A stretch of DNA of 64,000 nucleotides from Pedobacter mucosus. Its GTDB lineage: Bacteria > Bacteroidota > Bacteroidia > Sphingobacteriales > Sphingobacteriaceae. Positions 20,513-30,911 of this stretch are shown in pieces. The translations under genes and the position numbers were made by a program. Location of the stretch: positions 3,286,001-3,350,000 of the forward strand of contig NZ_CP087585.1 of assembly GCF_022200785.1 (NCBI RefSeq), given 5' to 3'. Each line of letters begins with the position of its first letter. The stretch's first letter is position 1. Below the pieces are notes generated by a model. That model did not search any database, was not told the DNA's origin, and saw nothing but the letters and a program-made list of their open reading frames with translations.

Positions 20513-22033
20513 TTAATAACCTGGATTTTGAATGTACAATCCTGGTACAGCATCTATCTGTGTTTGCGGCACTGGATAAATTATATGATTAGCAGTAGCT
20601 GGCCTGATCGCGTTTTGAGCATCATCTTTCGCCCGCCAGGCATTCATAATATTAAGCAAATCGCCACTTCTTTGTAAATCAAACCAGCGTGAGCCTTCAT
20701 TAGCGAATTCTTTTCTACGTTCCTCAAACAACTGTGGCAAAGTTACTCCAGTTATTGCCGTTAATCCAGCTCTTATTCGCACCTGGTTAACGATTGCGTC
20801 TACATCTGCCTGAGCTCCGGGCGCACCTCTCAAAATACATTCAGCTTTTAGCATTAAAATATCAGTGTACCTAAACGCGATAAAATTAATTCCCCAATCG
20901 AATCTACTTGTCGTTGGTATTTTAGTGATATCCAGCCATTTCTTAAAGAATGGTCTATTCTCTGTGCTTCCAGCATTGGTGTAACCAGCGGTATTGATAT
21001 TAAAAGCTTTTCTAACATCAGCTGATGCGTAACTATTTAATAAATCATTAGAAACAGGAATAATTTCCAAACTACCATTAGACCTACTATCCTTTAAAGA
21101 TAAAAAGTAGGCACCAGGTGCAAGCACCCAAGGGAAAGAAGCACCATATAAATCAGCTGTACCGCTTATACCAGTTTGGTACATTACGTTAAAAACCGCT
21201 TCTTTATTTACAGTCGGACTTTGATTAGTGTAAGAAAATATATTACTGTAATTGGTATTGAACACATATAAACCGCTGGAAATGATATCCTGTAATAGAG
21301 GCAGGGCTAAATTCCATTCATTAGAATCTTGGCCTGGGCCATCTATACCATATTTTGCTGATGATTTAGCCATATAAACCTGCGCCAATAAAGCTTCTGC
21401 AGCATACTTTGTAGCACGCCCAACATCAACGCCTGTATATGTTGGAGGCAGATTGGTTATGGCCGATTGCAAATCAGCTATCATAAATTTATAAACATCA
21501 ACTACGTTAGCCCTATTAATGGTAGCTGCTTCGGGAGCAGATACGGGATGATCTATAATCGGAACTTTACCAAAATACCGCACCAAATCAAAGTAATAAA
21601 AAGCCCTTAAAAATTTTGCTTCGGCTTGTAAACGTGTTGCCAAGGTAGCAGATTCTATAAAACTTCCATTTTTATCTATCTGATCTAATAAAGTATTGGC
21701 TCTGAAAATCCCATTAAAATCTGTACTCCAAGCTTCAGTAACATAAGAATTTGCAGCTATTGAAGGGGAAAAATCATTAATTGGATCCCAGTCCCGTACC
21801 GTAACGGATACCCCATAAATATTATCTGAACGTATTTCTGATAAATTCGATAATCTAATTGGGTAATTATGCAAGCTGGCATAAATAGCATTTGATGCTT
21901 GTAAAAAATCACTTGGTGAACGATAAAATGTAGCAGTTGTTGATGCTGAAATAGGCGTTTGATCTAATTCCTTCTTACATGAATTAAATAAGATCGCGGC
22001 TGATATTGTGATTAGAAAAAATAATTTTTTCAT
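20513..22033 (-). CDS. SusD/RagB-family outer-membrane lipoprotein
   Basis: A surface lipoprotein that captures glycans or other nutrients for the SusC-like transporter. The lipoprotein signal MKKLFFLITISAAILFNSC gives Cys19 as the lipidation site. TPR-like helices follow, including LRAFYYFDLVRYFGKVPI (SusD N-terminal signature) and the C-terminal EERRKEFANEGSRWFDLQR signature with the AENHIIYPVPQ-like ending. ATG at 22033 is preferred over 22051 so that the signal peptide is intact. It lies about 20 bp after the susC-like stop, in the same operon. Confidence 0.94.
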   Translation of the reverse strand: MKKLFFLITISAAILFNSCKKELDQTPISASTTATFYRSPSDFLQASNAIYASLHNYPIRLSNLSEIRSDNIYGVSVTVRDWDPINDFSPSIAANSYVTEAWSTDFNGIFRANTLLDQIDKNGSFIESATLATRLQAEAKFLRAFYYFDLVRYFGKVPIIDHPVSAPEAATINRANVVDVYKFMIADLQSAITNLPPTYTGVDVGRATKYAAEALLAQVYMAKSSAKYGIDGPGQDSNEWNLALPLLQDIISSGLYVFNTNYSNIFSYTNQSPTVNKEAVFNVMYQTGISGTADLYGASFPWVLAPGAYFLSLKDSRSNGSLEIIPVSNDLLNSYASADVRKAFNINTAGYTNAGSTENRPFFKKWLDITKIPTTSRFDWGINFIAFRYTDILMLKAECILRGAPGAQADVDAIVNQVRIRAGLTAITGVTLPQLFEERRKEFANEGSRWFDLQRSGDLLNIMNAWRAKDDAQNAIRPATANHIIYPVPQTQIDAVPGLYIQNPGY

Positions 22034-22053
22034 GATTATATTTTTATACATTA

Positions 22054-25000
22054 TTAAAAACTAACATTTAATCCGAATATTAATGATTTTGCTAAAGGCA
22101 ATCCACCATAATCTCCAGGTTCTGGATAGTTATTGTCAGAACTTATAGCTGTATTTTGAGCCTCCGGATTAAATCCTCCATAATATTTATCGTGCCCGAA
22201 AAAGTTTTCTGCAGTAACATAAATTCTAGCCACGCCTAAAAATTTAGCTTTGACAATGCTTTTAAGGTCATAACCTAAAGTAATATTTCTAACCCTAACG
22301 TAATCAGATGAATATAACCAATTGGTATTGGCAACAAAACCAAAAGTAGAATAAGCTTTACTTACTGTTCCATCTCCAGGATCACTTGGCGATCTCCAAC
22401 GGTTAACATAGAATTGTGGCGCATTATCAGTAAAACCTTGGCCGTTACGGTTAATTGCTCTTCCCAATAAAGAATAAATGGTACCTCCGTTTTGGCCTTG
22501 AACTAAAACATTTAAATCGAACCCTTTATACCTAAATGTATTGGTAACTCCCCAGGTATAATTTGGGTTTGGATGACCGACAATTTGCTTATCAGCTTCT
22601 GTAATAATCCCATCACCATTTAAATCCTGATATTTTGGATCGCCAACAGTTTCACCAGTTCCATATGTAGCAACTTTATTGTTAATATCAGCTTGCGTTA
22701 AAATTCCTATTTGCCTTACCACATAAGTACTGTATAATGGTTCGCCAACGCGGATAATTGCGTCAGAAACCACAAAAGGATTTGGAACAATAATTTGTTG
22801 CTGGTTACCGAAAAGTGAAACTACTTTATTAGCATTGTGACTAATGTTTATAGAGGTAGTCCATTGAAATTTACCAATCAAATTCCGACTCGTAATTTCT
22901 AACTCCTGACCAATATTCCGAACTGAACCTGCATTACGTAATTGACTGCTAAAGCCAGTGGATTGTAACACCGGAACATTAAGCAATAAATCTGTATTTA
23001 ACTTATTGTAATAGTCAAAAGACCCTGTAATGCGATTTTTAAGGATTCCAAAATCTACACCGATATCGTAAGTTTGAGATTTTTCCCATTTAATATCATC
23101 GTTGGCTAAATTACTCGGTGTTTGTCCGCTTGCTAAAATTTGAGTAGCACCAAGCACATAACCGCTTTGCCCAATTTGAGAAATACTACCATAATCACCT
23201 ATACTATTATTTCCATTTACACCATAACTCACACGTAATTTAAGGTCGCTGATTACACTAACATTTTTCATAAAATCTTCTTGTGTAACTCTCCAAGCTA
23301 CAGATCCTGAAGGGAAGATACCGTATTTAGTATTCGCTCCAAATCTAGATGAGCCATCTTCTCTTATACTTGCTGATAAAAGGTATTTATCTCTGTAACC
23401 ATATTGAACCCTTGTAAAGTAAGATACCAACACACTTTTTGTACCTGTAGTGTTACCGCTTACATTGGCAGCAGCATTTAAAGTTTGAATAATACTGTTT
23501 GTATAACCTCCAACTGATGATAACGTTGATTGATCTAAACGATCTACATTATAAGATTGGCCCACTAAAACATTTAAGCTATGTACTTTATTAAATGTTT
23601 TATTATAAGTTAAGGTATTTTCATTTACAAATGTTTGCCTTTTATAGGTGCTATATCCACCAGATGTATTTGCTGTTAAATTTGCATTGGTAGCCGCATT
23701 GAATGTTCGTGAAGCTAAAGTTCCTGAAATTGTATAAGGTGTATAAGACCTAGAAGCGTTATCAGAATTATCAAGATTAACAGATGTTCTTAACGTTAAA
23801 CCTTCTATAATTTTGTATTCACCATAAATAGAACCTAAAGTACGGTACTTTTTAGTTTCACCGATTTTACTTTCTAACCTGGCTATAGGACTATTTGGCG
23901 AGTTTCCCCATGTATATTGTCCGTTAGTATAAACATTAGGATATAAGCCAGCACTTTCTTCTTGTAATGGAGTAAAACCAATGGTTTGATGAAAAATATT
24001 GTCCTTTCCTTCAACCCCTGGATCATTAGAAATGGAATAAGTTGGTGCAATATTTAAACCCATTTTTATCTTTTTCGAAACATTTACTTCAACATTTGCC
24101 CTTGCAGAGTAAGCTCTATAATCTAAACCTTTTACGAAACCTTCTTGATTAGCATAATTTCCTGATATAAAATAATTTACAAATTCATTACCTCCGCTAG
24201 CGCTAATGGCTTGATTTTGCATCGCACCTTTTTGCTCAATCTCTTTCTGCCAATCTACATATCGTAAACCAGGGTGGCCAGGTATTGCCCAACGCGGATC
24301 TAACATATAAGCAGCACTAAATGCGCCCCCGTTTAATGCTTGGCGCTTGGTTACATCATCATTTGCAGTAGCGCCAGCGGCACCATACCTTAAAACGTAT
24401 GCTGCATTTATCATTTCTGTAGCACGATCAATCCATTCTTCTCCATTTAAAAAAGGCAGATATTTACTAGCTGCATTGTAGCCGTAATAAGCACTATAAT
24501 TAATGGTGGCTTTGCCCGATTTACCTTTTTTGGTTGTAATTAAAACCACACCATTTGATGCTCTTGAGCCATAAATTGCAGCCGCGGCTGCATCTTTTAA
24601 AACCTGAATATCTTCAATATCGTTTGGGTTGATGTTATCCAGAGGATTACCAGCACTAAAATTACCACTTGTCCCAATTGGTGCAACTGAAAGTGGAAAG
24701 CCATCGATAACATATAATGGCTCATTTCCGGCACTGATTGATCCACTCCCACGAACATTTACACTAAATGCTTTACCTGGAACCCCACTGGTTTGCTTTA
24801 CACTAACCCCTGCAAGCTGACCAACAAGTGCCTGATCTACTCGGGTAACTGCTCGTTCATTAAGTTTATCAGCCTTAAACGTAGATTGTGCACCAGAAAC
24901 ATTTCCTCGTTTCTGTGTTCCATAACCAATAACCACAACTTCATCCAGTTGAGAATTGTCTTCTACCAGCGTAACATTAATCGTGGTTTGATCGCCGATA

Positions 25001-25263
25001 ACAACTTCTTTGGAGTTGTAGCCGATAAATTTGAATACCAAAACTTGTCCCTTATTAGCCTTGATGCTATAGCGGCCATCCATATCAGCACTTGTGCCAA
25101 TTTTAGTGTCTTTAATTTGTATTGATACGGAAGGCAAGGAAATGCCTTTGCTATCGCTTATTTTCCCAGTAATGCTTATTTGCTGTGCGACGGCAATATT
25201 AGTGATCATCATCAATAACAGCAGCACCTTTATCATCGCGAAATGAATATGATTTTTTTTCAT
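22054..25263 (-). CDS. SusC/RagA-family TonB-linked outer-membrane transporter
   Basis: A TonB-dependent importer of 1069 residues. The signal peptide ends near AVAQ, followed by a carboxypeptidase-D-like regulatory domain (about 29-115), the SusC linker DEVVVIGYGTQKRGNVSGA, a plug domain with the GNEPLYVIDGFPL and NPNDIEDIQVLKDAAAAAIYG signatures, and a 22-strand barrel ending GLNVSF. No extra N-terminal STN domain is seen, so anti-sigma/sigma trans-envelope signalling is not expected. No glycosidase, sulfatase or peptidase is next to it, so the substrate is unknown. Confidence 0.95.
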   Translation of the reverse strand: MKKNHIHFAMIKVLLLLMMITNIAVAQQISITGKISDSKGISLPSVSIQIKDTKIGTSADMDGRYSIKANKGQVLVFKFIGYNSKEVVIGDQTTINVTLVEDNSQLDEVVVIGYGTQKRGNVSGAQSTFKADKLNERAVTRVDQALVGQLAGVSVKQTSGVPGKAFSVNVRGSGSISAGNEPLYVIDGFPLSVAPIGTSGNFSAGNPLDNINPNDIEDIQVLKDAAAAAIYGSRASNGVVLITTKKGKSGKATINYSAYYGYNAASKYLPFLNGEEWIDRATEMINAAYVLRYGAAGATANDDVTKRQALNGGAFSAAYMLDPRWAIPGHPGLRYVDWQKEIEQKGAMQNQAISASGGNEFVNYFISGNYANQEGFVKGLDYRAYSARANVEVNVSKKIKMGLNIAPTYSISNDPGVEGKDNIFHQTIGFTPLQEESAGLYPNVYTNGQYTWGNSPNSPIARLESKIGETKKYRTLGSIYGEYKIIEGLTLRTSVNLDNSDNASRSYTPYTISGTLASRTFNAATNANLTANTSGGYSTYKRQTFVNENTLTYNKTFNKVHSLNVLVGQSYNVDRLDQSTLSSVGGYTNSIIQTLNAAANVSGNTTGTKSVLVSYFTRVQYGYRDKYLLSASIREDGSSRFGANTKYGIFPSGSVAWRVTQEDFMKNVSVISDLKLRVSYGVNGNNSIGDYGSISQIGQSGYVLGATQILASGQTPSNLANDDIKWEKSQTYDIGVDFGILKNRITGSFDYYNKLNTDLLLNVPVLQSTGFSSQLRNAGSVRNIGQELEITSRNLIGKFQWTTSINISHNANKVVSLFGNQQQIIVPNPFVVSDAIIRVGEPLYSTYVVRQIGILTQADINNKVATYGTGETVGDPKYQDLNGDGIITEADKQIVGHPNPNYTWGVTNTFRYKGFDLNVLVQGQNGGTIYSLLGRAINRNGQGFTDNAPQFYVNRWRSPSDPGDGTVSKAYSTFGFVANTNWLYSSDYVRVRNITLGYDLKSIVKAKFLGVARIYVTAENFFGHDKYYGGFNPEAQNTAISSDNNYPEPGDYGGLPLAKSLIFGLNVSF

Positions 25264-25524: not shown

Positions 25525-26682
25525 ATGCAATTTGAATCAGAAATTTTAATTATTGGTGGTGGTTTAGCAGGTTTAACAGCTGCTTTACATCTTGAAAAAG
25601 CTGGATTTAATGTTATTTTAATCGAGAAAATAGCCTATCCTCATCATAAAGTTTGTGGGGAATATGTTTCAAATGAAGTACTTCCCTATCTTGATTGGCT
25701 TGGCATTCACATAGAAAAACTCGATCCATCGCACATTAAAAATTTAGAAATAACAACGGCTTCAGGTAAAAGCATCAAAGGTATTTTGCCTTTAGGAGGA
25801 TTTGGCATCAGCAGATATAAATTGGATGACTTTTTATATCAGCAAGCACTAAAGAAAAATATAAAAGTGGTTTTCGATACCGTGACCGATGTCAAATTTC
25901 AGGCAGATACTTTTTCGATTAATACATCCTCTGGAACCATTTATAAAGCTAAACAAGTTTTAGGTGCACATGGTAAACGTTCAACTTTGGATCAAAAGAT
26001 GGAGAGAAATTTCATGAGCTATAAATCACCATTTTTGGCTGTAAAAGCGCATTACGTTGGGGATTTCCCAGATGACTTGGTTGCATTGCATAATTTTAAT
26101 GGTGGCTACTGCGGCGTTTCGAAAGTGGAAGATGATAAAATTAACATTTGTTATTTAGCTGGTTACGAAACCTTTAAAAAACATAAAAATATCGATGAGT
26201 ATCAAAAAGCGGTACTCTATAAAAACAAGCATTTAGAACATATTTTTGAAAGCTGTGACATGATTTTTGAGCAACCGCTAACCATTAGTCAATTATTTTT
26301 CGGACAAAAAACAGCTGTTGAAAATCACGTGTTAATGATTGGAGATACCGCTGGACTAATACATCCACTTTGTGGAAATGGAATGGCGATGGCGATTCAT
26401 AGTGCAAAAAAAGCATCAGAAATTTTAGTAGATTACTTCATAGGAAATATTGCTTCTCAACAACAATTAGAGAAAAAATATACAGCTGTTTGGAATAAAC
26501 AATTTAAGTCTCGACTAAAAATGGGCGAAGTTTTAGCCGCAATATTGCAACGAGAAAAGCTAACTAACCTACTATTAAATGGCCTTGTTAAAATGCCCTC
26601 CTTATTAAATCAAATTATTAAAAGAACGCATGGTAAACAAATTGCTGCGCAAATATTAAATGAAAATAGACACCGAATATAG
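25525..26682 (+). CDS. FAD-dependent oxidoreductase of the biosynthetic operon (UbiH/geranylgeranyl-reductase-like)
   Basis: The first gene of a seven-gene operon. The N-terminal dinucleotide fold IIGGGLAGLTAA (about residues 9-20) binds FAD, HKVCGEYVS lies near residue 42, and GDTAGLIHPLCGNGMAMAIHSA (about 273-294) is the second FAD motif of group A flavoprotein monooxygenases and geranylgeranyl-type reductases. ATG at 25525 is used; a TTG six codons upstream is less likely. It would hydroxylate an aromatic ring or reduce a lipid tail; next to a type III PKS and a methyltransferase, ring hydroxylation to a quinol/quinone is the better guess. It overlaps the next gene by 23 bp. Confidence 0.85.
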   Translation: MQFESEILIIGGGLAGLTAALHLEKAGFNVILIEKIAYPHHKVCGEYVSNEVLPYLDWLGIHIEKLDPSHIKNLEITTASGKSIKGILPLGGFGISRYKLDDFLYQQALKKNIKVVFDTVTDVKFQADTFSINTSSGTIYKAKQVLGAHGKRSTLDQKMERNFMSYKSPFLAVKAHYVGDFPDDLVALHNFNGGYCGVSKVEDDKINICYLAGYETFKKHKNIDEYQKAVLYKNKHLEHIFESCDMIFEQPLTISQLFFGQKTAVENHVLMIGDTAGLIHPLCGNGMAMAIHSAKKASEILVDYFIGNIASQQQLEKKYTAVWNKQFKSRLKMGEVLAAILQREKLTNLLLNGLVKMPSLLNQIIKRTHGKQIAAQILNENRHRI

Positions 26683-27373
26683 AAGTACTGCTCCTGAATT
26701 AATGGATGATTTCCATATGGAGGGAGAAATTTTAAAGGATGCTTTAGATAAAATAGCCAACATAAACCAGCTCCTCGGTGGCAATAAAGTAACCTTAGAT
26801 GGCGTAAAAATACTCATTTCCAAAGAACCTAAAACTGCTCTAACCCGAATTATTGATGTTGGTTGCGGCAATGGAGCAATGCTGAGAATGTTAGCAGATT
26901 ATGCTAAATCGAAACATTTAAATTTTGAGTTAAAAGGAATTGATGCCAACCAATTTACAATTGATCATGCCAAAAGTTTATCCAGAAAATATGCAAACAT
27001 AAGCTATGAATGCAAAGATGTTTTCGATCATTTAAATGAGCCAGAAAAATGCGAAATTATACTTTGCACCTTAACATTACATCATTTCAAAAACGATGAG
27101 ATAATCAATCTTTTGCAAAACTTTAAGCTGGCAGCAAACGTTGGTATTGTGATCAACGATTTACAGAGAAGCGCATTGGCTTATCGCTTATTTACTGCTT
27201 TAAGCTTTGTGTTTAGGCTAAATGATATGTCGCGAGAAGATGGATTAGTTTCAATTTTACGCGGTTTTAAAAAAGAAGACTTACGCAATTACGAACAAAA
27301 ACTAGCTATTAAAACCAGTTTTATTAAATGGAAATGGGCTTTCCGATACCTTTGGATTATTAAAACAAAATGA
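26660..27373 (+). CDS. SAM-dependent class I methyltransferase of the biosynthetic operon
   Basis: The glycine-rich SAM motif IIDVGCGNGAMLRML starts near residue 72. A motif-II acidic position (KGIDANQF) and a motif-IV-like CTLTLHHFKNDEI segment follow. At 237 residues it is a stand-alone small-molecule methyltransferase. The first 60 residues are helical and resemble a lid. Its start lies inside the flavoprotein gene and its stop overlaps the PKS start by 4 bp (ATGA), which points to translational coupling. The likely substrate is the polyketide-derived ring, by analogy with SrsB of the streptomycete phenolic-lipid pathway; this is inference. Confidence 0.85.
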   Translation: MKIDTEYRSTAPELMDDFHMEGEILKDALDKIANINQLLGGNKVTLDGVKILISKEPKTALTRIIDVGCGNGAMLRMLADYAKSKHLNFELKGIDANQFTIDHAKSLSRKYANISYECKDVFDHLNEPEKCEIILCTLTLHHFKNDEIINLLQNFKLAANVGIVINDLQRSALAYRLFTALSFVFRLNDMSREDGLVSILRGFKKEDLRNYEQKLAIKTSFIKWKWAFRYLWIIKTK

Positions 27374-28422
27374 GCGTAAAAATTAAAGCTGTAAGTAAAG
27401 CCTTACCAGAATTTTCTAGAACAACAGCAGAAATAATTCCATTTTTAGATGCTTGGCTAATTGATCAAGATGATCGGTTTATCAGAAAGGTAAAAAAAAT
27501 CTTCGAAAATGCGGCAGTCGATCAACGGTATAGTTTTATGTCGCCCGACGAAGTTTTTAGTGATTTAAGTTTTGAAGAACGCAATGATATTTACATCCGT
27601 GAAGGAATAAAACTAGGTAGCGAGTGTTTAAAATCAGCTTTAGAAAAAGCAAGTTGGAAACCTGAAGATTTAGATTATATAATCACAGTGAGTTGTACTG
27701 GAATCATGATTCCATCGCTTGATGCTTATTTAATTAATGCGTTAAAACTCCGCCAAGATATAGTTCGGTTGCCTGTTACAGAAATGGGATGTGCTGCAGG
27801 CGTATCTGGAATGATTTATGCAAAGAATTTTTTAAAAGCAAATCCTGGTAAAAGAGCTGCCGTTATAGCGGTAGAATCGCCAACGGCAACCTTACAAATC
27901 CAAGATTTTTCCATGGCAAATATTGTAAGTGCGGCCATTTTTGGTGATGGTGCGGCCTGTGTTTTATTAAGTTCTAACGAGGGAGATGAAGGACCAGAAA
28001 TTTTAGCTGAGGAAATGTACCACTTCTATGATGCAGAAGAAATGATGGGTTTTAGGCTTACTAATACTGGCTTGCAAATGGTTTTAGATGTTGAAGTACC
28101 TGAAACTATTGCTGAACATTTCCCTCAAATTATTCATCCATTTTTGGCCAAAAGCAATTTGGAAATCAAAGATATTGATCACCTTATTTTTCATCCAGGC
28201 GGAAAGAAAATTATTCAAGTGGTTGAATCACTTTTCGGAGAACTTGGGAAAAACATAAACGATACCAAAGAAGTATTGCGATTATATGGCAATATGAGTA
28301 GCGCAACCGTGTTATTTGTGTTAGAACGATTTTTGGATAGCAAACCAAAACCAGGTGACTATGGTTTAATGCTTAGCTTCGGTCCAGGATTTTCGGCACA
28401 AAGAATATTACTTAAATGGTAG
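27370..28422 (+). CDS. Type III polyketide synthase (chalcone/stilbene synthase-like)
   Basis: A homodimeric, ACP-independent condensing enzyme that extends an acyl starter with malonyl-CoA and cyclises it. The Cys-His-Asn triad is complete: C141 (TEMGCAAG), H275 (FHPGGKKI) and N308 (YGNMSSAT). The C-terminal LMLSFGPGFSAQ loop is the family GFGPG-type motif. At 350 residues it is typical. It is placed between a methyltransferase and fatty-acid-type genes, so its starter is probably a fatty acyl group, giving an alkylresorcinol or alkylpyrone. The cyclisation mode cannot be read from sequence. Confidence 0.93.
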   Translation: MSVKIKAVSKALPEFSRTTAEIIPFLDAWLIDQDDRFIRKVKKIFENAAVDQRYSFMSPDEVFSDLSFEERNDIYIREGIKLGSECLKSALEKASWKPEDLDYIITVSCTGIMIPSLDAYLINALKLRQDIVRLPVTEMGCAAGVSGMIYAKNFLKANPGKRAAVIAVESPTATLQIQDFSMANIVSAAIFGDGAACVLLSSNEGDEGPEILAEEMYHFYDAEEMMGFRLTNTGLQMVLDVEVPETIAEHFPQIIHPFLAKSNLEIKDIDHLIFHPGGKKIIQVVESLFGELGKNINDTKEVLRLYGNMSSATVLFVLERFLDSKPKPGDYGLMLSFGPGFSAQRILLKW

Positions 28423-28423
28423 C

Positions 28424-28864
28424 ATGACATCAGCAGAAATACTAAAACATTTACCCTATGGAAAACCATTTTTATTTGTCGATGAGCTGTTAAGTGTATC
28501 CGAAACTGGAGCAAAGGGAAGTTTTACTTTTGATGAAAATCTAGATTTCTACAAAGGTCATTTTAAAGATAACCCGGTTACACCAGCGGTTATTTTAATT
28601 GAAACAATGGCGCAAATCGGTTTGGTTTGCCTTGGTATTTATTTAACAAATATTGAGAATCAAAAACAAGACTCATCCGTAGCCATGACATCAAGTGCGG
28701 TAGATTTTTTAAAGCCGGTTTTCCCAGGAGAAAAAGTAACAGTTACCAGCGAGAAAATATATTTCCGCTTCAATAAACTCAGCTGCAATGTTAAGATGGA
28801 AAATAGCAAGAATGAAACGGTTTGTATTGGAAAAATTGAAGGTATGTTATTTAAAAAACCATAA
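28424..28864 (+). CDS. FabZ-like 3-hydroxyacyl-ACP dehydratase (hotdog fold)
   Basis: A single hotdog domain of 146 residues. The dehydratase dyad is visible in YKGHFKDNPVTPAVILIETMAQ-type sequence as H46 and E60, with the opening LPYGKPFLFVDEL as in FabZ/FabA. It dehydrates a beta-hydroxyacyl thioester on the operon's ACP. It starts one base after the PKS stop, and its stop overlaps the ketosynthase start. It is too diverged to be the housekeeping FabZ by eye and is probably dedicated to this pathway. Confidence 0.85.
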   Translation: MTSAEILKHLPYGKPFLFVDELLSVSETGAKGSFTFDENLDFYKGHFKDNPVTPAVILIETMAQIGLVCLGIYLTNIENQKQDSSVAMTSSAVDFLKPVFPGEKVTVTSEKIYFRFNKLSCNVKMENSKNETVCIGKIEGMLFKKP

Positions 28865-30135
28865 TGAAAAATCGGGTCGTAATTACAGGTTTAGGTGTAG
28901 TTGCTCCAAATGGAGTTACCATCAACGAATTTAATTATGCCATACAAAATGGTGTTTCAGGAATTCGCCACCAGCCAGATTTGGAAGCGCTTGGCTTTTC
29001 ATGCCAAATTGCAGGTAAACCCGAATTATCAAAGGAAAGAATTGAAGAATATTTTACACCGCTGGAAATCAGAAACCTCGATAGCACAGGCATTGTTTAT
29101 GGCGTTATTGCCGCAATGGACGCCTGGAAAGATGCAGGTTTAGCAATTCAGGACAACGATACACCAGATTGGGACAGTGGTACAATTTTCGGAACCGGAA
29201 CTTCTGGAATTGATAAATTTAGATGGGCCATTAATAAAATTGATGAACTTCAAATTCGGAAACTCGGCAGTACGGTGGTTTCGCAAACGATGGCTAGTGC
29301 AGTTAGCGCTTTTATAAGTGGAAAAATTGGTTTAGGAAACCAAGTAACCACCAATTCCTCTGCCTGTGCAACCGGAACAGAAAGTATTATTCTTGCTTAC
29401 GAAAGGATAAAATCCGGACAAGCAAAAAGAATGTTAGCCGGAAGTACTAGCGATAGCGGACCTTATATTTGGGGAGGTTTTGATGCCATGAAAGTTTGCA
29501 CTTTTAAACATAATGATGATCCACAAAAGGGTAGTCGCCCAATGAGTGCAACCGCGAGTGGTTTTGTGCCTGGAAGCGGTGCTGGTGCAATGGTTTTAGA
29601 ATCTTTGGAAAGTGCTTTAGCAAGAAATGCGAAAATTTATGCCGAAGTTTTAGGTGGCCATGTAAATTCTGGCGGACAAAGAGGTTTAGGAACGATGACA
29701 GCTCCAAATCCTATTGCAGTTCAACGTTGCATTACAAAAGCCGTTGCCGATTCAGGTATCAAAGCTGAAAATATTGAAGTTGTAAATGGCCATATTACAG
29801 CAACGATTAAAGATGCATTGGAAATTGAAAATTGGAAAATCGCTTTAAATAGAACTGCTGAAAACTTTCCTTATATCAATTCGCTTAAAGGAATGATTGG
29901 CCATTGTATCAGCGCTGCGGGGAGTATTGAAACGGTCGCATCTGTTTTACAACTGCATGAAGGGTTTATTTTTCCAAATATAAACTGTGAAGACGTTAAT
30001 CCAGAAATTACCGAATTGATCAATGAAGATAAAATTCCGCAAGCCATGATCAAAAAACAATTTTCTATTTTAGCTAAAGCGAGTTTTGGTTTCGGCGATG
30101 TAAATGCTTGTTTAATTCTGAAAAAATATGAATAA
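28864..30135 (+). CDS. FabF-like beta-ketoacyl-ACP synthase
   Basis: A KAS I/II condensing enzyme of 423 residues. The triad is intact: C168 (NSSACATG), H310 (VNGHITAT) and H347 (GMIGHCISAAG). It should therefore be catalytically active, unlike a chain-length factor, which lacks the Cys. The C-terminal ASFGFGDVNACLIL is typical. The H310 motif reads GHITAT rather than the usual AHGTST, a departure worth noting. It probably elongates or primes the acyl chain handed to the type III PKS. Start and stop overlap the neighbouring genes. Confidence 0.9.
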   Translation: MKNRVVITGLGVVAPNGVTINEFNYAIQNGVSGIRHQPDLEALGFSCQIAGKPELSKERIEEYFTPLEIRNLDSTGIVYGVIAAMDAWKDAGLAIQDNDTPDWDSGTIFGTGTSGIDKFRWAINKIDELQIRKLGSTVVSQTMASAVSAFISGKIGLGNQVTTNSSACATGTESIILAYERIKSGQAKRMLAGSTSDSGPYIWGGFDAMKVCTFKHNDDPQKGSRPMSATASGFVPGSGAGAMVLESLESALARNAKIYAEVLGGHVNSGGQRGLGTMTAPNPIAVQRCITKAVADSGIKAENIEVVNGHITATIKDALEIENWKIALNRTAENFPYINSLKGMIGHCISAAGSIETVASVLQLHEGFIFPNINCEDVNPEITELINEDKIPQAMIKKQFSILAKASFGFGDVNACLILKKYE

Positions 30136-30391
30136 AGATGAAATAATAAATAGTTTAAAAGAGATCGTTTTGCTTTATACTGAAGATAAAGCAGCAGTAG
30201 AAACGATGCATGAAGATACCGATTTTTTAAAAGATTTGAAGGTAAATTCTGCTAATTTAGTTGATATCGTTCTGGACATTGAAGAAAAATTCAACATTGA
30301 AATTGATAACGACTCGATGGCAAAGATGTTAACTGTTAAAAATACCATTGAAATAATTGAGCAAAAACTTGCAGAAAATGCTGGGAAATGA
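30128..30391 (+). CDS. Acyl carrier protein of the biosynthetic operon
   Basis: An 87-residue acidic four-helix carrier protein. The phosphopantetheine site is probably S41 in LKVNSANLVDIV; the usual DSL triplet reads NSA. A second helix with LDIEEKFNIEIDND matches ACP helix II-III. It overlaps the ketosynthase gene by 8 bp, and the next gene starts within it. It would carry the growing acyl chain between the KAS, the dehydratase and perhaps the type III PKS. Confidence 0.85.
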   Translation: MNKDEIINSLKEIVLLYTEDKAAVETMHEDTDFLKDLKVNSANLVDIVLDIEEKFNIEIDNDSMAKMLTVKNTIEIIEQKLAENAGK

Positions 30392-30911
30392 CCTTATTGA
30401 TTTAGAAGAAGCTGCTTTAAAAAGCAACTGGAAAAGAAAAGGCTTTCTTGAAAAATTATTTACAGCAGAGGAACAGCAAGAAGTTTTGATCGCTATCAAT
30501 CCGCTTGTTAAAGTTTGGCTTTTATGGTCGATGAAAGAGGCCGCTTACAAAATTGTAAACAGAATTAACAACGAAAGATTTTTTTCACCTTTAAAATTTA
30601 GCTGTAATTTATCATCATTAAATGAGGGAACGGTAATTTATGAGGGTCAAAAATTCCATACAAAATCCAGAATTGAGAGAAATTTTATTCATACCATAGC
30701 ATTAAAAAACCCTCACTATTTTAATATTATTACGACAAAGTTCCTTCCATATCATGTTGAATATGTTAATCAATTCAACATTCAGTCAACTAAATATTTT
30801 TTAGCAAAGGATGATTTTGGCATTCCAAAATTGACAGATAAGGACACACAATTGGAACACATTTCTTCAATAAGTCACCATGGAAAATTCCTTGCTTTAG
30901 TACATATTTAA
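30378..30911 (+). CDS. 4'-phosphopantetheinyl transferase
   Basis: Transfers phosphopantetheine from CoA to the serine of an ACP. Magnesium and CoA-binding positions are recognisable: the GNDLIDLEEA start (D5, D8 as in AcpS/Sfp enzymes), FTAEEQ near residue 28, and the WSMKEAAYK signature (E54, K58). At 177 residues it lies between AcpS (about 125) and Sfp (about 220) sizes. ATG at 30378 is preferred over the TTG at 30357; it overlaps the ACP gene by 14 bp. It probably activates the operon's own ACP. Confidence 0.85.
   Translation: MLGNDLIDLEEAALKSNWKRKGFLEKLFTAEEQQEVLIAINPLVKVWLLWSMKEAAYKIVNRINNERFFSPLKFSCNLSSLNEGTVIYEGQKFHTKSRIERNFIHTIALKNPHYFNIITTKFLPYHVEYVNQFNIQSTKYFLAKDDFGIPKLTDKDTQLEHISSISHHGKFLALVHI

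Follow-up and report, generated by a model that had tools for sequence, protein, structure and literature searches.

In a planctomycete trio of adjacent genes, a type III polyketide synthase (PKS) alone is reported to give alkylresorcinols and, once a methyltransferase (MT) and a FAD oxidoreductase are added, methylated alkylresorcinols; the ring of hierridin B, the product of hidABC, is reported to be hydroxylated (PMC10896814). Precedents for the use of acyl chains bound to an acyl carrier protein (ACP) are ArsB and ArsC, which take theirs from the ACP of ArsA, SCO7671 and GCS, which use hexanoyl-ACP (PMC6274091), and CylI, whose chain is supplied by ACP-based synthases (PMC8086630). In one survey of Bacteroidetes, type III PKS clusters ranked fourth in frequency among cluster types (PMC9100364). 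The operon described here lies in a 64,000-nucleotide stretch of Pedobacter mucosus (contig NZ_CP087585.1, positions 3,286,001 to 3,350,000; the window in the following), part of a complete 4.93 Mb genome. Two blocks make up this mosaic operon: block A encodes a flavoprotein, an MT and a type III PKS, and block B encodes a dehydratase (DH), a ketosynthase (KS), an ACP and a phosphopantetheinyl transferase (PPTase). With moderate confidence both blocks are assigned to a single pathway, in which an acyl chain would first be assembled by block B on the ACP encoded there, and block A would then make a methylated, oxidised alkyl-aromatic compound.

The operon consists of seven tightly packed plus-strand open reading frames (ORFs) in the ORF list of the window, positions 25525-30911 (Table 1). 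Five of the six gene joins are overlaps of 23, 4, 1, 8 and 14 bases and the sixth, from PKS to DH, is a 1-base gap, which confirms the overlapping or abutting genes of a preliminary description made from the sequence. Each of the seven proteins has a Pfam match above the gathering cut-off (in order FAD_binding_3, Methyltransf_25, Chal_sti_synt_N/C, FabA-like, ketoacyl-synt, PP-binding and ACPS), and the operon is real, with the seven genes identified and located as that description had them. No NCBIfam model listed for the seven proteins (for the flavoprotein, the best 25 of 105 rows) reached its curated cut-off. The flavoprotein carries an HKVCGEY stretch and, near the C-terminal half, a CGNGM stretch, both invariant in 19 aligned sequences. 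The MT matches PF13649 and PF13847 and is of the soluble class I type, with no Pfam match to PF04140 (ICMT). In block B the DH, KS and ACP are single-domain proteins by Pfam, and the KS is 31-34% identical to its three matches elsewhere in the same genome.

A scan of genome contigs gave 389 relatives of the PKS, the best 80 of which were analysed: 50 from Pedobacter, 21 from Flavobacterium, one from Dyadobacter, one from a metagenome-assembled genome (MAG) named Candidatus Nitrotoga and seven from unranked MAGs. All seven genes occur in the same order and on the same strand in 76 of the 80, so that the synteny on which the preliminary description had staked its reading was found. Among the remaining four, L103, L112 and L118 are cut by contig ends and the locus of Dyadobacter sediminis (L131) is rearranged into two divergent blocks with no adjacent flavoprotein gene, the best flavoprotein match elsewhere in that genome being only 37% identical. 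In the PKS and KS trees L131 groups with Pedobacter or same-genus sequences, which suggests transfer of the operon between lineages. The next most frequent neighbour cluster (ORFs of at least 80 amino acids) is found at only 27 of the 80 loci, and the block therefore has sharp edges. The L118 contig, filed under the Candidatus Nitrotoga MAG, has the operon with a PKS 80% identical to that of the window, like the loci of Flavobacterium, and is probably mis-binned.

The order of the detected genes is kept at eleven more distant loci (PKS identity 65-76%), where flavoprotein, MT, PKS, DH, KS and ACP were present in 11/11. At eight of these a short-chain dehydrogenase/reductase lies between PKS and DH, and the one tested resembles the enoyl-ACP reductase FabL (150 bits, cut-off 328). 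Over both sets an enoyl reductase (ER) is the eighth gene in 10 of 91 relatives. Foreign ORFs were seen in operons of another family, one MepB-like between PKS and DH (L141, 4491-5015) and one encoding a GIY-YIG protein between DH and KS (L143, 3941-4318). When the window and the 91 loci were aligned (92 rows), PKS Cys141/His275/Asn308 and DH His46/Glu60 were kept in 92/92 rows, KS Cys168 in 91 and His310/His347 in 90 of 92, the other rows being gaps, and ACP Ser41 in 90/90, always within the site Asn-Ser-Ala-Asn. The PKS triad looked for in an Srs-type system and the Cys-His-His, His/Glu and Ser residues of a type II elongation block are thus all intact. Distances between pairs of sequences are correlated across the seven genes (Mantel r 0.66-0.87, higher than in any of 199 permutations, n = 82, fragmentary rows having been dropped from 85), a correlation that shared genome history alone could also give.

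Among the matches listed, the operon PKS family was found in 25 of 296 genomes of a phylum sample at ≥65% identity and in 13 of 151 genomes of a family sample at ≥67% identity, with 12 of 20 in the genus of the window; the next long PKS matches are at most 41% identical and short fragments 45-48%. The block B KS (E up to 1e-70), the flavoprotein (E up to 1e-30) and the MT (E up to 1e-15) were detected in 29, 63 and 90 genomes of the phylum sample, respectively. All 25 phylum-sample genomes with the operon PKS also have the block B KS, 2.4 being expected by chance if relatedness is ignored, and so do all 13 of the family sample, in which the KS occurs in 19 of 151 genomes overall. The KS is present without the operon PKS in 4 of 29 and 6 of 19 genomes of the two samples (G014 being in both). 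Trio and chain block lie on separate contigs in genome G115 (L233 and L234), both complete, and both halves are likewise retained in the split operon of L131. The single pathway of the preliminary description is well supported by this co-occurrence, though not proven.

Block B is also found with other partners. In all six family-sample genomes that have the KS without the operon PKS, and which belong to one other genus of the same family, an ER-carrying block B is divergent from DarB-DarG-DarH. At one of these loci (L213) the scores exceed the NCBIfam cut-offs (DarB 634.8 vs 550, DarG 197.8 vs 170 and DarH 453.7 vs 300), and the DarB of the other five is 81-89% identical to it by blastp. ER, DH, KS and ACP are present at 6/6 and the PPTase at five; it was undetected at L239, where the neighbouring ORF has no Pfam match. 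A shorter chain block, consisting of DH, KS and ACP, was seen in three genomes of another family (L214, L215 and L216) beside acetyltransferase-like and family 2 glycosyltransferase genes, neighbours that suggest a glycolipid-like product; an ER accompanies it in one of the three and a PPTase was undetected in all of them. In the KS tree the operon, dar and glycosyltransferase settings form three clades (support 95/96, 97/99 and 99/96) nested in one 22-row clade (100/100), from which FabF and the two plasmid KSs in the tree are separate.

The trio occurs without the chain block as well. Sixteen Bacteroidota trio loci, selected from the phylum-sample flavoprotein and MT matches, were opened, and PKS and MT were present at 16/16 and the flavoprotein at 15/16 (L231 is a short contig); the trio of L221 was found by tblastn, longer antisense ORFs masking its genes in an ORF-based scan. 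No match to DH, KS, ACP or PPTase was found at these 16 loci. A UbiA prenyltransferase is present at 13 of them (Pfam on six; tblastn), and tblastn gave no UbiA match in the 93 operon-family stretches, which are 3.5 to 17 kb long. Plasmid homologues are 26-32% identical for the MT (among the best 20 of 33 records) and, outside Bacteroidota, 22-29% identical for the flavoprotein (among the best 20 of 27). Of these, 13 of the 33 records with an MT match and four of the 27 with a flavoprotein match were opened, and a type III PKS was found by profile at all 13 MT loci, two of the four flavoprotein loci (Bernardetia and Hymenobacter) being without one. On the Hymenobacter plasmid pHsw1 (L178, 3060-8074), a relative of the window flavoprotein (35% identity) has as neighbours a TauD/TfdA-type dioxygenase and a protein annotated to the isonitrile synthase family; the stretch contains no type III PKS. 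The 15 plasmid loci outside Bacteroidota all carry type III PKS and MT by profile, and the flavoprotein by profile in 14 and by annotation in the fifteenth. A KS stands beside the trio in four of the 15 (Table 1), from Sphingobium yanoikuyae, Novosphingobium pentaromativorans, Caballeronia and Novosphingobium resinovorum, the last by profile only, its record being unannotated there; a phosphopantetheine-binding protein is annotated at the S. yanoikuyae and N. pentaromativorans loci and an acyl carrier protein at that of Caballeronia. Common descent of these KSs with that of the window was not supported by two trees, both with long branches, in which they fall in separate clades, and because they group apart the pairing of trio and KS looks convergent, with more than one origin.

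In sequence identity, the operon flavoprotein and MT stand closer to Bacteroidota trios than to plasmid trios, the base of both trees being unresolved. The operon PKS, in a 38-row tree, joins the Bacteroidota type III PKSs with an ICMT neighbour (support 100/99.9). That tree omits L232, L221, seven of 15 plasmid, four of 13 window-family and two of nine ICMT rows, as well as the planctomycete sequence, a long branch, and HidC was not included; support for joining the ICMT type is weaker (91/80) in a larger tree of 50 rows that includes long branches. The ICMT-type family is 31-41% identical to the window PKS, and an ICMT (PF04140) partner was present at 9/9 of its opened Bacteroidota loci. The mosaic could have come about by alternative routes, either replacement of the PKS within a trio or loss of MT and flavoprotein from ICMT-type loci.

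The starter pocket of the window family was compared with those of 15 plasmid and 15 Bacteroidota trio-type enzymes and nine of the ICMT type, at positions matching the PKS18 acyl tunnel. Alignment of the window PKS to THNS, and of PKS18 to a trio-type enzyme, supports this mapping, in which the CHS and PKS18 residue numbers were in part assumed. Four positions, invariant in 92/92 window-family rows, stand out. Ile114 corresponds to Ala in 28/30 trio-type enzymes and to Thr in the ICMT type, Pro171 to Cys in 27/30 and in the ICMT type, and Thr174 to His in 29/30 and to Thr in 8/9 of the ICMT type. Phe228 corresponds to Trp in 29/30 trio-type enzymes and in the ICMT type, and in 38/39 other type III PKSs overall; no ring type is read from it by comparison with ArsB Trp281.

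In the proposed pathway the PPTase would arm the ACP to carry an acyl chain, which the KS would extend; the ketone would presumably be reduced by a host FabG-type enzyme before the DH dehydrates. The chain would be saturated by an ER, the adjacent gene in some relatives and presumably a host enzyme in the window genome. The type III PKS would then take the chain from the ACP, add malonyl-CoA units and close an aromatic or pyrone ring, which the MT may methylate and the flavoprotein hydroxylate. The product is probably an oily aromatic compound, and we infer that it could be a membrane-associated quinone. This order is preferred because of the acyl-ACP precedents (SCO7671, GCS, ArsB/ArsC and CylI), the planctomycete trio and the other gene neighbourhoods in which the chain block is found.

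Several observations count against it, and confidence in the order is moderate mainly because the pocket residues are altered: the long-chain starter pocket is remodelled, which disfavours a plain long fatty starter. The products of trios are also a weak guide, a position of the operon PKS as sister to, or in one clade with, the Bacteroidota trio PKSs being rejected (p-AU = 3.07e-05). No ketoreductase gene is present in the operon, the PPTase was undetected at three of the 11 distant loci (L146, L148 and L149), the flavoprotein is dispensable or replaced in Dyadobacter L131, and the partners of block B differ from setting to setting.

The reverse order is doubtful but deserves weighing: the PKS would use only malonyl-CoA to make a small aromatic acid, which block A would tailor and block B, once the acid is loaded on the ACP, would elongate to an aryl-alkyl or aryl-polyene product in the manner of aryl polyenes. 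It would fit the remodelled starter pocket, and also an unsaturated chain, the ER being missing from the window operon and from most relatives (10/91 have it). Cys109 aligns with the extra cysteine of the malonyl-primed THNS noted in a review, which also states that most bacterial type III PKSs carry such a cysteine (PMC6274091). As a mark of malonyl priming Cys109 was rejected as non-specific, since it is present in 30/30 trio-type enzymes. The best NCBIfam model for the window PKS is that of DpgA, the 3,5-dihydroxyphenylacetyl-CoA synthase, but membership was rejected (NF042429, 190.4 bits vs a cut-off of 425) and the score does not discriminate, because three ICMT-type enzymes score about as high (163-197 bits). 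Moreover, block B also adjoins DarB genes, and DarB systems make their ring from finished chains.

It is improbable that the flavoprotein is instead a double-bond reductase of the geranylgeranyl-reductase type, saturating the chain so that the product would be a methylated alkyl-phenol and not a quinone. Its best NCBIfam score is with this group (TIGR02032, GG-red-SF, 104 bits), below the cut-off of 158.8, QhpG giving 80.7 bits (cut-off 240); the geranylgeranyl-type reductase 3oz2 ranks seventh among its solved relatives, and the window operon has no ER gene for the task. However, halogenase-type flavoproteins take the first five places by score among solved relatives, the flavoprotein is kept in trios without a fatty-acid block, and the ring made by the hidABC system is hydroxylated (PMC10896814). 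That the blocks make separate products and are merely co-transcribed is very unlikely, for although the KS occurs without the operon PKS, trios occur without block B and the operon is split between the blocks in two cases, the operon-type PKS was never seen without the block B KS in the two samples, even when unlinked, and a KS of separate lineage recurs beside the trio in Sphingobium, Novosphingobium and Caballeronia.

The coordinates are collected in Table 1, gene starts being the preferred choice among possible ones. Directly upstream of the operon and divergent from it, on the minus strand (window 20513-25263), lies a putative SusD-like and SusC-like outer-membrane pair, on a reading of the translations.

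Table 1. Features of the operon (window coordinates) and plasmid loci with a KS beside the trio (coordinates within each locus)
Feature	Position	Strand	Basis or remark
Flavoprotein, geranylgeranyl-reductase / class A monooxygenase-like group, probable ring hydroxylase	25525..26682	+	Pfam, NCBIfam, alignment
MT, class I S-adenosylmethionine methyltransferase	26660..27373	+	Pfam; NCBIfam NF004851 124 bits, cut-off 243
Type III PKS, triad Cys141-His275-Asn308	27370..28422	+	Pfam, NCBIfam, alignments
DH, FabZ-like dehydratase, His46 and Glu60	28424..28864	+	Pfam, NCBIfam, alignment
KS, FabF-like ketosynthase, Cys168/His310/His347	28864..30135	+	Pfam, NCBIfam, alignment, KS tree
ACP, Asn-Ser41-Ala-Asn attachment site	30128..30391	+	Pfam, NCBIfam, alignment (90/90 rows)
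PPTase, ACPS/Sfp superfamily	30378..30911	+	ORF list, Pfam; possible TTG start at 30357 (longer protein)
Plasmid trio and KS loci	L182 3486-7805; L185 1695-6678; L191 4073-8780; also L190		Sphingobium, Novosphingobium, Caballeronia

The two-block mosaic, the ER as an eighth gene and the chain block at DarB clusters go beyond the preliminary description. Tentatively, they can be drawn together as a head-and-tail plug-in logic in Bacteroidota, in which a portable tail cassette (ER-DH-KS-ACP-PPTase) would serve unrelated head-makers, either the type III PKS trio or DarB, and the trio elsewhere would receive a prenyl tail from UbiA; the pocket-remodelled operon PKS, of another type III PKS lineage, would take its starter from the cassette ACP with its odd Asn-Ser-Ala-Asn site. 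If this holds, the many Pedobacter and Flavobacterium genomes with this operon direct the synthesis of an aromatic lipid that is still uncharacterised, no product for this cluster having been found in searches of openly licensed papers. The tail cassette in two settings would offer a way to ask how a carrier protein passes a chain to a ring-making enzyme, and the role of the tail could be probed by a natural swap, since the trio is paired with UbiA in one setting and with a fatty-acid block in the other. Five Pedobacter isolates from amphibian skin share seven genes in a predicted type III PKS cluster, differences in which may contribute to variation in inhibition of a chytrid fungus, although the discussion sees no clear link overall (PMC10452622). 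This cluster is probably the same operon, the accessible text naming no genes, pathway or product.

Among described systems, SrsABC of Streptomyces griseus resembles the operon by function only, with a type III PKS, a methyltransferase and a flavoprotein. Srs is not known to have a dedicated ACP, KS, DH or PPTase, and SrsB is a membrane methyltransferase of the ICMT type. The Srs parallel drawn in the preliminary description holds for the three functions but not for kinship: the operon MT is of another type than SrsB, and in Bacteroidota ICMT partners go with another type III PKS family. Trios of type III PKS, MT and flavoprotein, such as the hid type of cyanobacteria and planctomycetes, are closer in gene content. 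The hidABC and planctomycete operons likewise hold MT, FAD oxidoreductase and type III PKS together (PMC10896814), and a trio on a Paludisphaera plasmid, in the planctomycete gene order, was matched by the window-family profiles (MT 99, flavoprotein 89 and PKS 139 bits); homology of the adjacent window genes is thus shown to the planctomycete trio by profile, HidA-C themselves not being compared. The window differs in its order flavoprotein-MT-PKS, in a PKS of another group, outside the trio-type clade, and in four extra chain-building genes.

The ars operon of Azotobacter (ArsA/ArsD with ArsB/ArsC) shares dedicated fatty-acid machinery beside the type III PKS. The synthase of Ars is of type I, and the operon has no genes for one; its chain enzymes are discrete type II proteins accompanied by a dedicated PPTase, together with an MT and a flavoprotein. 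From the dialkylresorcinol (dar) clusters the window differs in being without DarB, its PKS scoring 19.8 bits on NF053539 against a cut-off of 550. With them, however, the operon family shares a homologous ER-DH-KS-ACP block, the dar-linked and the operon KSs falling in one clade.

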